A stretch of DNA of 10,836 bases from Bacteroidales bacterium. Lineage in GTDB: Bacteria > Bacteroidota > Bacteroidia > Bacteroidales > UBA932. The stretch is taken from assembly GCA_013335275.1 (NCBI GenBank), contig JAAXVX010000023.1:1-10836 (forward strand). Direction: 5' to 3'. Below the pieces are notes generated by a model. The model saw nothing but the letters and a program-made list of their open reading frames with translations, was not told the DNA's origin and searched no databases. A program made the translations under genes and the position numbers. Positions 6,217 to 10,836 of the stretch are shown piece by piece; the first letter of the stretch is position 1; every line of letters starts with the position of its first letter.

Positions 6217-6915
6217 TCAGAGCAGAGACCGCTTTGAAATACCGGCCACAAAATCTTTCAGATAGAAAGGTTCGAAATATGCCGTGTCTACAAATTCTTT
6301 TTTATTGAATTTTTCAAATGCAGGGGCAGCCATTCCTCTGGCGGAAGCATCCGTAAAACGGAAAATGGCATTCGAATGTTTTATTAACTCCGCTGCCTTT
6401 TTTGCACCATCTCCGGTAAAGATTACAGGTCCGGCAGATAATTCTTCGGAAAAGCTATTTTCATCCAGTACAAGTGCCTCTGTTTTGGAAACAGGAATAC
6501 AATTGCGATTATACCTGCACGTATAGACCTCCATCCTTCTTGCATCAATCATAGGTGCAATTGTCAACTCTCCTTCGGGCATTTCTCCGCTTTCTGCACA
6601 AAGCCTTGCAAGAAGTTCCAGAGAACTCACGGCAATCATGGGAATTCCTGAACCATAGCACAGTCCTTTTGCTATTGATACCCCAACGCGGAGCCCGGTG
6701 TATGAACCGGGACCTTCACTCACTACTATTGCGCTGCAAGCGGCAACAGAGGAGGAGGCCTCTTTAAGGACCTCCTCTATAAAGTTGCCGATTATTCTTG
6801 CGTGTGCCTTTGGCTCTTTTATTATCCTTTCGGCAATAATTTCCGTTCCGCGGCTGAGCGCAACAGAACAAACCTCGGTGCTTGTTTCAATTAAAAGCAG
6901 TTGCGGAAGAAACAT
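6217..6915 (-). CDS. tsaB: tRNA threonylcarbamoyladenosine biosynthesis protein TsaB
   Basis: TsaB is the non-catalytic partner of TsaD (with TsaE) in moving threonylcarbamoyl from TC-AMP to A37 of ANN-decoding tRNAs, giving t6A. At 232 residues it is of normal length. It has the ASKHA-fold start LLLIETSTEVCSVALS, the family motif SEGPGSYTGLRVGVSIAKGL at about 67-86, and the C-terminal motif AYFEPFYLKDF typical of Bacteroidota members. The ATG (6915-6913) overlaps the TAA of the upstream adaptor gene in a TAATG arrangement, so translation is probably coupled. Its stop is 15 bases from the stop of the convergent lipoprotein gene, and I see no terminator hairpin between them. Having a near-universal translation gene at the end of an efflux operon is odd but sequence-clear. 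Confidence 0.95.
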   Translation of the reverse strand: MFLPQLLLIETSTEVCSVALSRGTEIIAERIIKEPKAHARIIGNFIEEVLKEASSSVAACSAIVVSEGPGSYTGLRVGVSIAKGLCYGSGIPMIAVSSLELLARLCAESGEMPEGELTIAPMIDARRMEVYTCRYNRNCIPVSKTEALVLDENSFSEELSAGPVIFTGDGAKKAAELIKHSNAIFRFTDASARGMAAPAFEKFNKKEFVDTAYFEPFYLKDFVAGISKRSLL

Positions 6916-8177
6916 TATTTAGCCTTTTTATTTACCGGAGGAGCCTTCTCATCCTTCTTTCCGGCTACTTTAGTACCGGCCTTAAGAGTTTTACTGATAG
7001 CAGAATAAGGACCAGTAACGACTTTTTCACCCTCTTTGAGTCCTTTAACTACTTCAATATTTGAAATATCCTGAATACCTGTGGTAATCTCTCTCACTTC
7101 AAGAGTATTGTCGGCCTTTATGACAAATACCTGTTCCAGCATCTCGTCGGCAAGTTTTGCTTTTTTAGTTGTGTCTCCTTTAAGGTCAGTTCTGGTTGTA
7201 ATTGCCTGAAGCGGAACTGTAAGGATATTATATTTCTTGTCTGTCTGGATGGATGCAGTTGCCGACATTCCGGGACGGAAAGGATTTTTACCGTTAACAA
7301 TAAGATCGGAATAAGATTCGGGAAGGATAAGAATCTTAACTTCAAAATTTGTTACCTGCTCAACGGATGAACCGATATTTTTTGCAGAGTTTGCAATTTG
7401 TGTAACAACGCCCGTGAACTTGCGATTAGGATATGCATCAACCTCAATGGAAGCGGTATCATTTTGCTTAATCCGGATAATATCATTTTCGTTAACATCA
7501 ACAAGAACCTCCATGTGGTCGAAGTTTGCGATGCGAAGCAATTCTGTACCCGCCATCTGACTTGTTCCGACAACCCTTTCGCCTTTTTCAACGCTCATCT
7601 TTGAGATTATGCCATCCATAGGTGCATATATGGTTGTTTTGATAAGATTTTCCTGAGCTTCCTTAAGAGCAGCAGTTGCGCTCTTTACGTTAAATTCTGC
7701 GGCCTTTATCTGCTCCTTTGTGACATTGTATTGAGAAAGTGCATTCTCATACTCTGACTCAGAAATTGCTTTCTGGTCAAAAAGAGTTTTGCTGCGCTTA
7801 TAAGTCTGCTCAACCAGGCTGAATTGTGCAATTTGCTGGGTTAACTGAGCCTTTACAGAGTTAAGTGATGCTTCCGATCTCTCTTTCATGGATATATACA
7901 CATCCTGCTTAATTTTGATTATAAGCTCTCCCTTCTTAATTAAATCGCCCTCTTTAAAATTGAGATCAATGATTTCTCCGGATACGTCCGGAGATATTTT
8001 TACCTCAACTACAGGTCTTATCTTTCCATTGGCAGGAATGACTTCTGTAATTGTTTTTTTAGAGATGACTTCGGATGTAACCTCAATGGCCTTGTTTTTA
8101 TTTTTTGTGCCGAATATTATCAGTACAGCTATTATTAGGACCGCTGCTGCGATTATCCATTTAAAACTCTTTTTCAT
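6915..8177 (-). CDS. Periplasmic adaptor (membrane fusion) protein, MacA/HlyD-like
   Basis: This is an adaptor that links an inner-membrane transporter to a TolC channel across the periplasm. It has 420 residues with an N-terminal membrane anchor (WIIAAAVLIIAVLIIFG, 7-23). The lipoyl half-motifs are VEVKISPDVSGEIIDLNFKEGD (from about 57) and IYAPMDGIISKMSVEKGERV (about 183-202). They flank an alpha-helical hairpin at about 95-180. A beta-barrel follows (FDHMEVLVDVNENDIIRIKQND), then a membrane-proximal domain (YNILTVPLQAITTRTD). The tail is lysine- and proline-rich and probably disordered. The layout fits MacA-type adaptors more than the long-hairpin HlyD of toxin exporters, but no MacB-like or RND pump gene lies beside it. 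It follows tolC by 32 bases without a Shine-Dalgarno and is coupled to tsaB. Confidence 0.92.
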   Translation of the reverse strand: MKKSFKWIIAAAVLIIAVLIIFGTKNKNKAIEVTSEVISKKTITEVIPANGKIRPVVEVKISPDVSGEIIDLNFKEGDLIKKGELIIKIKQDVYISMKERSEASLNSVKAQLTQQIAQFSLVEQTYKRSKTLFDQKAISESEYENALSQYNVTKEQIKAAEFNVKSATAALKEAQENLIKTTIYAPMDGIISKMSVEKGERVVGTSQMAGTELLRIANFDHMEVLVDVNENDIIRIKQNDTASIEVDAYPNRKFTGVVTQIANSAKNIGSSVEQVTNFEVKILILPESYSDLIVNGKNPFRPGMSATASIQTDKKYNILTVPLQAITTRTDLKGDTTKKAKLADEMLEQVFVIKADNTLEVREITTGIQDISNIEVVKGLKEGEKVVTGPYSAISKTLKAGTKVAGKKDEKAPPVNKKAK

Positions 8178-8209: not shown

Positions 8210-9532
8210 TTAAAGTGTAATAGGGTTTCCTTTATAAAAATCCAGAATTTTAAGCTGGAAAATATACTGATACTTTGCCTGATAGAAATCGGACTGGCTT
8301 TTGAAAAGATTTGCCTTGGCAACGGTATAGTCGGTTGCATTAAGAACTCCAACGTCAAATTTCTGCTGAACATATCTGAATGATTCCTGCATTGCCTTAA
8401 CATTGTCTTCTGTTGCTTTGAAGCGGGCAAAATAGGAGTGAGCATCATTTGCAGCCTGTTGAATTTCTTTATAGAGAAGCTGCTCCTGACTCTTTACATT
8501 AATATCCGATTTCTTCACTTCAATCCGGGCGTTACGAATAGCGGTGTTGGTTCTCCATGAATTAAAAACAGGAATGCTCAGGCCAAACGAAAGTGAAGGA
8601 TTTCTGTTTTCATTGAACTGAGTCATAAAGGCCACATCCCTGCTGTCGGAGAAATATGAACCATAAGCCGCCGTAAAAGAAACAGTAGGGTAGCTTCTTC
8701 CTTTTGCTATTGCAAGCTGAAGATTTGAGTTATCGCGGCTGAGACGAACACTTTTTACCTGAGGAAGATTTAGAGAGCTGCTATATAATTCATCAATTGA
8801 TACCCCCTTGAAGTCTGAAACAAAATTGTCAAGATTTGGAAGGGAAATATCAAAACTGCTGTCGGTAGAAAGGTCAAGAAGTTGTTTTAGCGACAGAAGA
8901 TTGCTGCTCACCTGATTTTCTGCATTTGTAAGCTGAAGCTTTTCTGTTGCAAGCTGGGCCTGAATTTCCAACAGAGAACTGTATGCCTGGCTACCAGCGT
9001 CCACCAGCTTTTTTGTTCTCGCAACCTGTTCGTCAATACTTGCAAGGCTGGATTTTGCAGTATTCAGAATCTCCTTTGACAGCAGAACCTGAAGATAGGA
9101 TCTTGCAATTTCAATAGAGATGTCATTTTTTATCCTGCTCACCTCCTGAACAGATATTTCTCTGATTACCTGCTTGCTTTTGAGGTCATTGTTTTTAGCC
9201 ATTCCCTCAAAAAGATTTATTGAAGCTCTTGCTGAGGCACTTGTACTCTGGCTAAGCTGGTTCTCAATAATCTGCAGGTCGTTCATGTTCACGGACCTTC
9301 CCCAGTTCATGCTGTGACTCACAGAGGCGTTCACAGAAGGAACATAGTTGAGTTTAGATTGCAGCAGATTGTTGTCGCTTTCTTCGACCACAAGCTCTTG
9401 CTGCTTGATTTTCAGGTTATTATCCCAAGCGTATTTAATACACTCCTCAAGACTCCAGAGCTTCTGCTGTGCAGATAGCAGGGTCGGGATTAATATGAGG
9501 ATAAAAACGGGGAGTTTGTATATTATTTTCAT
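8210..9532 (-). CDS. TolC-family outer-membrane efflux channel
   Basis: This is an outer-membrane factor that forms a trimeric exit duct for efflux or type I secretion. It has 440 residues. The signal peptide has a hydrophobic core at 7-19 and a likely signal peptidase I cut after A21 (LLSA|QQ). The mature part shows two outer-membrane efflux (OEP) repeats. The first begins LWSLEECIKYAWDNN; the second begins near YSSSLNLPQVKSVRLSRDN. Each has long amphipathic helices followed by a strand region (YVPSVNASVSHSMNWGRSVN; YPTVSFTAAYGSYFSDSRD). The ATG at 9532 is fixed by the signal peptide and by the promoter, which lies only 6 bases away. It is the first gene of the tolC-adaptor-tsaB unit. Substrate unknown; the neighbouring peptide genes make a secretion role possible. 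Confidence 0.94.
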   Translation of the reverse strand: MKIIYKLPVFILILIPTLLSAQQKLWSLEECIKYAWDNNLKIKQQELVVEESDNNLLQSKLNYVPSVNASVSHSMNWGRSVNMNDLQIIENQLSQSTSASARASINLFEGMAKNNDLKSKQVIREISVQEVSRIKNDISIEIARSYLQVLLSKEILNTAKSSLASIDEQVARTKKLVDAGSQAYSSLLEIQAQLATEKLQLTNAENQVSSNLLSLKQLLDLSTDSSFDISLPNLDNFVSDFKGVSIDELYSSSLNLPQVKSVRLSRDNSNLQLAIAKGRSYPTVSFTAAYGSYFSDSRDVAFMTQFNENRNPSLSFGLSIPVFNSWRTNTAIRNARIEVKKSDINVKSQEQLLYKEIQQAANDAHSYFARFKATEDNVKAMQESFRYVQQKFDVGVLNATDYTVAKANLFKSQSDFYQAKYQYIFQLKILDFYKGNPITL

Positions 9533-9573
9533 AAGTCACAAAGATAAATTATTTTTTATGAAAAACTCCCCGT
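9507..9573. repeat. 11-base perfect inverted repeat flanking the tolC promoter and start codon
   Basis: ACGGGGAGTTT at 9507-9517 and its exact reverse complement AAACTCCCCGT at 9563-9573 enclose 45 bases. The left arm is in tolC codons 6-9 (KLPV); the right arm is upstream of the -7 box, at about the -33 position. The enclosed bases hold the -7 box and the ATG. The match cannot be extended by pairing directly inward or outward. Confidence 0.75.
9539..9546 (-). promoter_or_regulatory. -7 promoter element for tolC
   Basis: On the minus strand 9546-9539 reads TATCTTTG, an exact TAnnTTTG match and identical to the box in front of greA. Only six bases (TGACTT) separate it from the tolC ATG, so the message should have almost no 5' leader. 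I see no good TTTG -33 element at 19-21 bases; that region holds one arm of the inverted repeat. Confidence 0.6.
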
Positions 9574-9598
9574 AAATAAAGATTTTACAAGGGTTGCT

Positions 9599-9811
9599 CT
9601 ATTTTATAATCTGTTCCCTTTTCTGTAGTTCATAGAGGTTAGCACTCATAAACTTAAAAGCTCTCCATAGTTTTTTTATGCCATAACCCAGGCCCATTCC
9701 AACATAACCGGCGATTTCCTTGTCCCAGTCACCGGCACCGCCCCTTACCACAGTGCATTCGCTTTCCGATAGGGCGGTAATATACATACTGTTGCAATAC
9801 TCTCTGTTCAT
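9599..9811 (-). CDS. Double-glycine-leader bacteriocin-like peptide B
   Basis: This is a 70-residue predicted precursor of a secreted peptide. Residues 1-25 are a leader ending LSESECTVVRGG, which fits the GG-leader pattern L(-12)S(-11)..E(-8)..V(-4).GG. The mature part would be 45 residues starting AGDWDKEIAGYVGMGLGYG, then IKKLWRAFKF. It has about eight K/R against five D/E and no cysteine. The glycine run holds two overlapping GxxxG motifs, as in helix-helix contacts of class IIb two-peptide bacteriocins. The start at 9811 is chosen because it overlaps the stop of peptide A as TAATG and has a real Shine-Dalgarno seven bases upstream; an in-frame ATG at 9826 would add only five residues across that site. 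Both cysteines are in the leader. Function (antimicrobial, pheromone, toxin) is inferred, not shown. Confidence 0.72.
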   Translation of the reverse strand: MNREYCNSMYITALSESECTVVRGGAGDWDKEIAGYVGMGLGYGIKKLWRAFKFMSANLYELQKREQIIK

Positions 9812-10002
9812 TATGCTGCCTCCCATCCCTTCTTGAAACCATCCCGGAAATTTGGCCAGTACTTTTCGGCCTTCTGCAATAATTCCACTGCAGCGCCAAT
9901 AATTTCTACAAGCTTTTTAAGCTTACCTGCTCCTCCATTGGTCAGCAGATCTCTCTCGCTCAGGGGAACAATGCCCCATCCTTCATACACTTCACTTTGC
10001 AT
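9811..10002 (-). CDS. Double-glycine-leader bacteriocin-like peptide A
   Basis: This is a 63-residue predicted precursor. Residues 1-24 form a leader ending VPLSERDLLTNGG; the mature part of 39 residues starts AGKLKKLVEIIGAAVELLQK, a good amphipathic helix, followed by AEKYWPNFRDGFKKGWEAA. It has about eight K/R against five D/E, no cysteine, three tryptophans in all (two in the mature part) and one GxxxG (GFKKG). The LS pair sits one residue closer to the GG than in the standard leader pattern, so the leader match is weaker than in peptide B. The cut would leave AG at the mature N-terminus, as in peptide B. The ATG at 10002 has only an A/T-rich upstream region. It lies 74 bases after the exporter gene and overlaps peptide B by one base (TAATG), so the pair is translated together. 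Confidence 0.7.
   Translation of the reverse strand: MQSEVYEGWGIVPLSERDLLTNGGAGKLKKLVEIIGAAVELLQKAEKYWPNFRDGFKKGWEAA
9819..9824 (-). promoter_or_regulatory. Strong Shine-Dalgarno for peptide B
   Basis: GGGAGG on the minus strand (9824-9819) stands seven bases before the ATG at 9811, inside the last codons of peptide A. Clear Shine-Dalgarno sites are otherwise hard to find in this window, so it stands out and supports separate efficient translation of peptide B. Confidence 0.6.
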
Positions 10003-10076
10003 AGCTTATAAATTTTTAAAACATCCCTGCAGAATTATGGTGTGCAGAGTTCACCCGGAGTGTGCACCCTCCTTTT

Positions 10077-10836
10077 TTATATATTATAACTTCTGTCTGA
10101 TATTTTGCTGCATATATCGCTGTGTGAAATCATCAGAATAATCCGCCCCTTCTCTTTTTCGCGTAAAACGGCACCAATTATTAACTCTTCCGACTCTTTG
10201 TCCAGAGAGGAGGTTGCCTCGTCCAGTATTAGGATGCAGCAATTTCTGTACAGAGCTCTTGCCATTGCAATTCTTTGCTGCTGACCTCTGGACAGGCGGG
10301 ATCCGTTTTCTCCGGTTCTGGTATCAAATCCAAGAGGGAGATTTACCACGAATTCAGAAATGTTAAGTTCATCACATAATTTAAGTATTCTCTCAATATC
10401 CGGGTCCGCTTCTCCCGGGGCAATATTCTCCATAATTGTGGCATCAAACAGTTCCGGATTTTGTGGTACGACTGAAACAGAAGATCGCCAGTGGCTGAGA
10501 TTGATATGGTTGATGTTTATCCCGTCTGCTTTTATTGTACCTGCCTGTGGCTGGTACATCCTCAGGAGAAGTGCTGCAATGGTGCTCTTCCCCGAGCCGC
10601 TCTCTCCGTTTAAGGCGGTTATTTCTCCGCGCTTCAGCTCAATATTCAGTTCTTTAAAGATGGTTGTCCTGCCGGGATACGAAAAGTTTATTCCCTCAAG
10701 CCGGATGGTCCCTGCAGAGGACAGATCCGGTGTGATCCCACCCGACAAAGGCTCTGCATCAAGTTCCATAATTTCAAAAAGCCTTTCTGCGGCAACCATT
10801 CCTTCCCGCAATATGGAGTTTATTCCAATTAATTCG
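10077..10836 (-). CDS. ABC exporter, C-terminal ATPase part (probable peptide exporter; 5' end missing)
   Basis: The frame stays open to the right edge (ELIGINSI before LREGMVAAERLFEI), so the TTG at 10811 is not the start. Residues here are counted from it. The visible part is the end of the transmembrane domain and the whole nucleotide-binding domain: Walker A GESGSGKST (69-77), Q-loop Q117 (SVVPQNPELFD), signature LSRGQ (173-177, for LSGGQ), Walker B CCILILDEA with D197 and E198, D-loop SSLD, and H-loop H230 (MISHSD). All catalytic residues are kept. The protein ends 14 residues after H230, shorter than most ABC exporters. Because two GG-leader peptide genes follow directly, I expect a peptidase-containing (C39) exporter that trims and exports them; the peptidase domain would lie outside the window and is not seen. 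The fused membrane-ATPase layout is clear, the substrate is inference. Confidence 0.88.
   Translation of the reverse strand, partial: ELIGINSILREGMVAAERLFEIMELDAEPLSGGITPDLSSAGTIRLEGINFSYPGRTTIFKELNIELKRGEITALNGESGSGKSTIAALLLRMYQPQAGTIKADGININHINLSHWRSSVSVVPQNPELFDATIMENIAPGEADPDIERILKLCDELNISEFVVNLPLGFDTRTGENGSRLSRGQQQRIAMARALYRNCCILILDEATSSLDKESEELIIGAVLREKEKGRIILMISHSDICSKISDRSYNI

Follow-up and report, generated by a model that had tools for sequence, protein, structure and literature searches.

The DNA analysed here (hereafter the window; 10,836 nucleotides, contig JAAXVX010000023.1 of the Bacteroidales assembly GCA_013335275.1) carries, on its minus strand, two small overlapping genes encoding double-glycine (GG) leader peptides, denoted A and B, directly downstream of the gene for an ATP-binding cassette (ABC) exporter. 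We consider, with a probability of roughly 0.6, that this cassette specifies a class IIb-like two-peptide system that is membrane-active and most likely a narrow-spectrum antibacterial. This reading draws on the C39 peptidase domain of the exporter and its homology to 4ry2 and ComA, on the linkage of exporter, A and B at every assessable locus of relatives, and on the co-occurrence of A and B across the family; it also takes support from a conserved small-xxx-small motif in each peptide, the amphipathic and predicted helical character of both, an Abi-type gene in one genus (g21), and the precedent of the bacteroidetocins, which combine a GG leader and a C39 exporter with, apparently, no immunity protein. 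The cassette is best read as lineage-specific, and it has no name in Pfam or NCBIfam.

Two GG-leader peptide genes follow a C39-type exporter

The gene for peptide A (9811..10002) encodes a precursor of 63 residues, with a 24-residue leader (codons 10002-9931) ending ...LSERDLLTNGG and a mature part of 39 residues (codons 9930-9814). The gene for peptide B (9599..9811) encodes 70 residues, of which 25 form a leader (codons 9811-9737) ending ...LSESECTVVRGG and 45 the mature part (codons 9736-9602). The ATG of B at 9811 overlaps the TAA of A by one base (TAATG); an alternative in-frame ATG at 9826 would give a B precursor of 75 residues. Both mature parts start A-G, are free of cysteine, and carry a net charge of +3 (K+R minus D+E, counted by eye). 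GxxxG occurs at A55-59 (codons 9826..9840) and, in B, at 38-42 (codons 9686..9700) and 40-44, with no GxxxGxxxG seen by eye in either peptide. A preliminary description of this DNA, made from its letters alone, had reported paired overlapping genes with GG leaders beside an exporter, and A-G starts, cysteine-free, net-positive mature parts and GxxxG motifs for both products; this observation is confirmed for the window peptides in all of these respects.

The exporter gene lies upstream on the same strand, as had also been described, its stop being 74 nucleotides before peptide A. The window is an entire contig (C208) of a 1.92-Mb assembly in 424 contigs (82.6% complete) and holds the C-terminal 252 residues of the exporter (10077..10836, minus strand; ABC_tran, E-value (E) 5e-33). 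The N-terminal 480 residues lie on contig C291 (L003:6880-8319), where the C39 domain that the preliminary description proposed to look for was found (Peptidase_C39, PF03412, residues 7-137, E 4e-33), followed by the ABC membrane domain (E 1e-38, Pfam). The window end (10697-10836) and the end of C291 (L003:8181-8320) share 140 bases with one mismatch (C at window 10710, T in the other contig), so that the split falls within the exporter and reflects strain variation or an assembly break. Across the two parts, PF03412, PF00664 and PF00005 are all present, and a relative 98% identical over the 480 N-terminal residues (L055) has the whole 686-residue exporter as a single frame. C39 peptidase, ABC transmembrane region and ATPase are thus combined in one chain, as in C39-peptidase ABC exporters (PCATs); the two parts also score against TIGR01193 (259 and 165 bits, obtained separately and not comparable with the 523.85-bit cut-off). 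Amongst solved structures, the best matches are ComA (E 4e-57) and, over residues 5-462, the bacteriocin transporter 4ry2 (E 1e-71), which we take to be PCAT1. This exporter is the sole C39 match found in the source assembly; an exporter search of named genomes gave six loci, two of them from close relatives (98 and 96%). A promoter and terminator scan of 9400-10250 gave counts close to expectation (two promoter-like sites against 2.2 expected; one terminator-like site against 0.8).

Linkage and co-occurrence across the family

Relatives were surveyed in a family sample of 149 genomes from 25 genera, with one genome per species. The exporter query matched 97 of these genomes at E up to 1e-40, with 103 matches in total, of which 100 loci were studied; the window's own locus (L003) and partial frames in G026 and G082:C134 were left out. 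A complete exporter frame is present in 98 of the 100 (L100 and L124 have no complete exporter open reading frame), and 72 of these 98 exporters sit at one locus, 68 of them having cvpA as the immediate upstream neighbour, 69 having tsaB downstream and 66 a TolC gene. Some of the 72 syntenic loci have rearranged flanks, for example L132 and L143. The remaining 26 represent different exporters, and these lie together on one side of a split in a FastTree tree (support 0.76).

At all 71 assessable syntenic loci of relatives, A and B come immediately after the exporter and next to one another (median spacing 10 nucleotides). These 71 loci exclude the window's own, and the 72nd (L120) ends 134 nucleotides after the exporter at a contig end. 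The peptides of 13 assessable loci were identified by eye, leader ends were placed by hand in L065, L099 and L140, and a spurious third reading frame in L098 was dropped; the sequences of all 71 pairs were checked against the DNA.

Single-sequence searching with A gave matches in 20 of the 149 family genomes, including all 12 own-genus genomes listed. Profiles of A and B, built from 34 rows each from the window and the same loci (and therefore matching those genomes by construction), found A in 75 genomes, spread over 12 of the 25 genera, and B in 74, spread over 11. The pairing of A and B is not due to chance, since the two profiles co-occur in 74 of the 149 genomes, with A alone in one and B alone in none; the single A-only genome (G054) has an A-like peptide beside one of the 26 other exporters. 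An order-level sample of 344 genomes (194 genera, at least five genomes being of the own family) gave A in four genomes, all of the own family, and B in the same four together with weak matches in five genomes outside it (E 3e-5 to 9e-4). We discount these five as chance matches, given that they fall within longer open frames (331-351 residues) and that prenyl synthases, too, are weakly matched by the B profile. Amongst 5.8 billion proteins searched at E up to 1e-3, there were 77 A-like and 218 B-like sequences. Readable organism names were few amongst the A-like and the best 120 of the 218 B-like matches, and read Bacteroidales, Bacteroidetes or Candidatus Coprenecus; the matched proteins include Candidatus Coprenecus pullistercoris, whose genus NCBI places in Rikenellaceae incertae sedis. 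One B-type cluster of 51 residues (P0158) represents 283 contigs, indicating that the system is common in public sequence sets.

Conserved features of the peptides

The GG leaders, whose loss in relatives would have counted against the preliminary description, are retained. In A, glycine occupies both -1 and -2 at all 71 loci; in B, -1 is invariably glycine, and -2 is glycine in 66 and alanine in 5. Hydrophobic and acidic positions precede these ends, in a different arrangement for each peptide, giving two leader kinds: E at -7 (41/71) and I/V at -4 (48/71) in A; E at -8 (50/71), V/I at -4 (65/71) and L/I/V at -12 (68/71) in B. A comparison of leader and mature constraint over 114 pairs gave no uniform difference (mean identity 0.58 and 0.67 for leader and mature A, 0.55 and 0.66 for leader and mature B).

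The most conserved mature residues form one small-xxx-small pair per peptide, present at all 71 loci in each case if alanine is allowed to replace one glycine. In A, G55 is invariant and G59 is kept in 68 (alanine in three), within the motif F-xx-G-F-xx-G-W; in B, G42 is invariant and G38 is kept in 61 (alanine in 10), with K or R four residues further on in 66. The B positions given here are those of the window peptide; the conservation count itself numbered B from the longer start in L055, five residues higher. Shuffling within peptides, which ignores the relatedness of the loci, gave GxxxG at 20 loci on average for A and at 18 for B, compared with 68 and 61 of 71 observed; for B, the looser [GAS]xxxG had a shuffle mean of 43, with [G/A]xxxG observed in all 71.

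Both peptides are amphipathic, the strongest 18-residue helical moment exceeding the mean of the peptide's own shuffles at 71 loci for A and 70 for B. For each mature peptide, AlphaFold2 predicts a single long helix with low confidence (A, residues 24-62, predicted local distance difference test score 68; B, residues 28-67, score 63; predicted template modelling score 0.29 each), from alignments of 38 (A3) and 41 (A4) sequences. Sequence searching of the PDB with the peptide profiles gave nothing convincing; the best matches were a designed protein for A (E 0.053) and a prenyl synthase for B (E 0.0038). The A-G start of the mature parts is not conserved amongst relatives, and cysteine occurs in mature A at 8 and in mature B at 22 of the 71 loci; these two traits, and positive charge, were considered as diagnostic and rejected, as they are not conserved.

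Gene neighbourhood and inheritance

The general order of the locus is cvpA, exporter, A, B, (TolC, adaptor), tsaB. In the window, B is followed on the minus strand by genes for a TolC-family outer membrane factor (OEP; 8210..9532; PF02321, E 2e-45) and a periplasmic adaptor of the RND_mfp/MacA type (6915..8177; TIGR01730 above cut-off), and then by the housekeeping gene tsaB (6217..6915; TIGR03725 above cut-off), which by synteny marks the 3′ side of the locus. At the other end, cvpA (colicin V production family; L003:6155-6598) adjoins the ColV-type exporter at most of the loci. As genomes without the exporter likewise have cvpA next to tsaB, the link between cvpA and exporter may be accidental.

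Loci around tsaB were also inspected in 20 of the 52 family genomes with no exporter match, tsaB being found in 18. At eight of these 18 (L186, L188-L191, L194, L195 and L198), cvpA is followed by tsaB with no recognised exporter, peptide, TolC or adaptor gene; in L194 about 330 nucleotides separate the two frames. At a further eight (L182-L185, L187, L193, L196 and L197, the last cut about 340 nucleotides upstream of TolC), TolC, adaptor and tsaB occur without exporter and peptides. The other two comprise one with an adaptor only, at a contig end, and one with none of these genes. Conversely, exporter and peptides precede tsaB without TolC or adaptor in L071, L072, L083 and L094; L101 showed no TolC or tsaB gene on its downstream side.

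Median identities are 36% for the exporter, 27% for A, 21% for B and 46% for TsaB, from which the peptides appear to diverge fast around a fixed motif. Pairwise identities of TsaB correlate with those of the exporter (rho 0.46), A (0.39) and B (0.35), at a level similar to that between TsaB and GreA (0.39); the corresponding values for GreA are 0.47, 0.25 and 0.27. TolC and adaptor identities correlate strongly with one another (rho 0.90), and with the exporter at only 0.06 and 0.04, respectively. Because exporter and peptides track TsaB, whereas TolC and adaptor track each other and not the exporter, exporter, A and B look like a vertically kept unit, as judged from pairwise identities, and TolC plus adaptor look like a separate, exchanged module. 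TolC and adaptor as fixed partners of the exporter were accordingly rejected, their identities being uncorrelated and each module occurring without the other; the neighbouring pair may nonetheless provide an outer-membrane route for the peptides.

Two further observations concern C39 exporters outside the syntenic locus. Downstream of such exporters in L134 (+68..+307) and L136 (+63..+305) lies an open reading frame with a GG leader, a hydrophobic stretch and then cysteine, the cysteine region being lipobox-like in L134 (LVGLLVTSCSEN); these frames present an odd mixture of leader types. Directly after other C39 exporters in L067, L068, L075, L082 and L084, a small helix-turn-helix-like frame was seen by eye (for example '...LAERLGISRSTLYSIIDEL...'), preceding GG peptides at some of the five loci; it is perhaps a regulator.

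An Abi-type gene in one genus

A scan for Rce1-like motifs over 99 stretches (98 exporter loci and L155) returned 10 genes, all directly after B and all in genus g21, that is, at 10 of its 10 assessable loci (L102, L103, L109, L111, L112, L114, L116, L117, L118 and L131). The gene, for an Rce1-like/Abi-type membrane protein, lies between B and TolC, about +500 to +1300 after the exporter stop. Four of the proteins are 235-251 residues long, with EExxxR- and FxxxH-type motifs, and the three given to Pfam match PF02517 (Rce1-like) above cut-off (E 1e-14 to 5e-18). Published work places some immunity proteins of two-peptide bacteriocins in the Abi family, with EXXXR and FXXXH motifs (PMC6957408, PMC10059821); by analogy, the g21 gene is a suggestive immunity candidate. 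Elsewhere, eight extra ATG frames of at least 50 residues, unrelated in appearance, occur in the gap after B, in eight of the 60 loci for which that gap was measured, and no small frame shared by the cvpA–exporter gaps of 11 own-genus loci was seen by eye.

Comparison with known systems

Most known class IIb (two-peptide) bacteriocins come from Gram-positive bacteria. Like lactococcin G, plantaricin EF/JK and thermophilin 13, the locus has two different, adjacent peptide genes with GG leaders (71/71 loci), a C39 ABC exporter, a GxxxG-like motif in each peptide (71/71) and predicted helices, with an Abi-type gene in one genus (class IIb features after PMC4786598). It departs from them in its Gram-negative host, in the lack of a curated match for the window peptides, in having no immunity gene found in the window or at most loci, and in its mostly fixed chromosomal position and vertical-looking inheritance; no dedicated immunity gene was found in the operon apart from the Abi-type candidate at 10 of 71 loci, other immunity types not being searched for. 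Amongst relatives, matches to family models are weak and scattered: lactococcin G-beta in 3 of 34 A members (best E 0.019) and 1 of 34 B members (0.009), ComC (3e-5) and BlpC (4e-4) in 1 of 34 A members each, and Bacteriocin_IIc in 1 of 34 B members (0.05). The class IIb interpretation in the preliminary description is thus partly supported: adjacent GG-leader peptides, each with a conserved GxxxG-like motif, bear it out; an immunity gene in the window operon and a curated-family match are missing. On sequence grounds the locus is class IIb-like in layout and motif, and we do not file it as a member, as the window operon has no linked immunity gene and the window peptides have no curated match.

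Class II microcins (colicin V type) resemble the locus in GG leader, C39 exporter, adaptor and TolC, and in being Gram-negative. A class II microcin is a single peptide with its own immunity gene, compared with two obligately paired peptides here. The Cdz system of Caulobacter (PMC5380434) is a Gram-negative two-protein bacteriocin with leaders ending G[G/A/S], GxxxG motifs, ABC export and a TolC outside the cluster; it differs in having extended zippers of the GxxxGxxxG type, built of small hydrophobic residues, and the immunity protein CdzI, the window peptides having no GxxxGxxxG and no immunity gene being seen here (CdzI homology was not searched for).

A precedent within Bacteroidota is that of the bacteroidetocins, single-peptide GG/PCAT bacteriocins apparently without an immunity protein (PMC6671954), and the earlier remark that such systems are little described in this phylum needs to be qualified to that extent. 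The two that have been studied mature to 42 residues with four cysteines from leaders of 15-16 residues, and their neighbours are a protein with five transmembrane segments and mostly a thiol oxidoreductase (PMC6671954). In contrast, the present locus has two peptides, cysteine-free in the window, with leaders of 24-25 residues, and cvpA-like, TolC, adaptor and tsaB genes as neighbours; the two or more cysteines, short leader and neighbouring genes of bacteroidetocins are all lacking. C39 exporters accompanied by GG peptides are also known from Bacteroidales clusters for ribosomally synthesised and post-translationally modified peptides (PMC10352776, PMC4573289); in Prevotella intermedia such genes are reported to be largely strain-specific (PMC4349605), which differs from the fixed locus here. 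A 2023 survey describes Bacteroidales bacteriocins as mostly class III proteins and single-peptide bacteroidetocins (PMC10352776), and PMC7616364 names bacteroidetocins and CdzCD. The class II section of the Hungate1000 survey names no Bacteroidota two-component system in its text, figures aside. We met no description of this pair in our searches of open-access literature, subscription journals and preprints being outside that coverage.

Discussion

The features assembled above support an outline of how a two-peptide system of this kind might work. The C39 domain of the exporter would remove both GG leaders during export, as the domain, the leaders and the strict linkage suggest. The mature peptides are predicted to fold as amphipathic helices at the membrane, where A and B may pair through one small-xxx-small face each, a contact to which the conservation of the motif points. 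Acting jointly on a membrane, they would most likely inhibit close relatives as an antibacterial of narrow spectrum. Passage across the outer membrane would need a TolC/adaptor pair, and the neighbouring one may serve, though it is not firmly tied to the exporter. Producers would owe their protection to differences in the target or to unlinked genes, with g21 having added an Abi-type immunity candidate after B.

Several observations weigh against an antibacterial role of this kind. In the window, 66 nucleotides separate the stop of B from the TolC gene, leaving no room for an immunity gene; the same holds across 60 loci (L101 was not measurable), where the distance from the B stop to the next TolC or tsaB match has a median of 89.5 nucleotides (range 6 to 226). 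The Rce1-like motif scan found no Abi-type gene at the other 61 of the 71 loci, other immunity types not being searched for, and the g21 gene amounts to one event in one genus. Rce1-like genes are present in one to three copies in each of the 12 own-genus genomes searched, so that such genes elsewhere in the genome may or may not provide immunity in the own genus. Furthermore, the vertical-looking inheritance is unlike the usual patchy occurrence of bacteriocins, positive charge is not conserved (A positive at 28 and B at 56 of the 71 loci), and the window peptides have no Pfam or NCBIfam match at E up to 1.

Alternatively, A and B may be a self-directed core secreted pair, exported as helices to the producer's own periplasm or surface for a housekeeping role such as envelope remodelling or partnership with an outer membrane protein; no immunity would then be needed. 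The single copy, the mostly fixed position between cvpA and tsaB with its vertical-looking signal, the finding of A in all 12 own-genus genomes listed and the want of an Abi-type gene in the window and at most loci all fit such a role, and the four loci with no TolC or adaptor before tsaB are compatible with periplasmic delivery. Against it stand the fast divergence of both peptides compared with TsaB, an Abi gene in one genus, the lack of a match to either peptide in roughly half of the genomes of the family, and the eight exporter-negative loci at which tsaB follows cvpA with none of these genes recognised in between; we regard it as unlikely, albeit the strongest of the alternatives.

Still less probable is a pheromone pair, exported, sensed by a receptor and controlling gene expression. 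The leaders are of the ComC/BlpC type, and the single A members matching ComC and BlpC could be cited in its favour; we take these matches to reflect leader resemblance. All neighbouring genes that were recognised have transport or housekeeping functions (no search aimed at kinases or regulators was made), and obligately paired, long amphipathic GxxxG helices are unusual for pheromones. Membership of the peptides in the TolC/adaptor efflux module, or an origin of both as chance reading frames, has close same-strand spacing in its favour and is very improbable, given that each module occurs without the other (TolC, adaptor and tsaB alone at eight exporter-negative loci, the reverse at four), that their identities do not correlate with those of the exporter unit, and that both reading frames are kept at 71 of 71 loci, a conservation that excludes chance.

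A class IIb-like membrane-active pair remains our preferred reading. More tentatively, the two-helix system may be a lineage-wide, vertically inherited one at a core locus of a single Bacteroidales family, that is, a class IIb-looking resident trait serving either as a kin-discrimination weapon or as a self-directed envelope factor, to which one genus has added an acquired Abi-type immunity gene. If so, the family would offer a natural before-and-after comparison of the addition of immunity to a two-peptide system.

In either case, around half of the genomes sampled from this Bacteroidales family have retained two peptides bearing class IIb hallmarks, almost invariably as a pair and at a single chromosomal locus. 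Killing activity would mean that the Bacteroidota possess a further weapon, made of two peptides, for which most producers have no linked immunity candidate; without such activity, peptides of class IIb appearance would be serving a housekeeping role.

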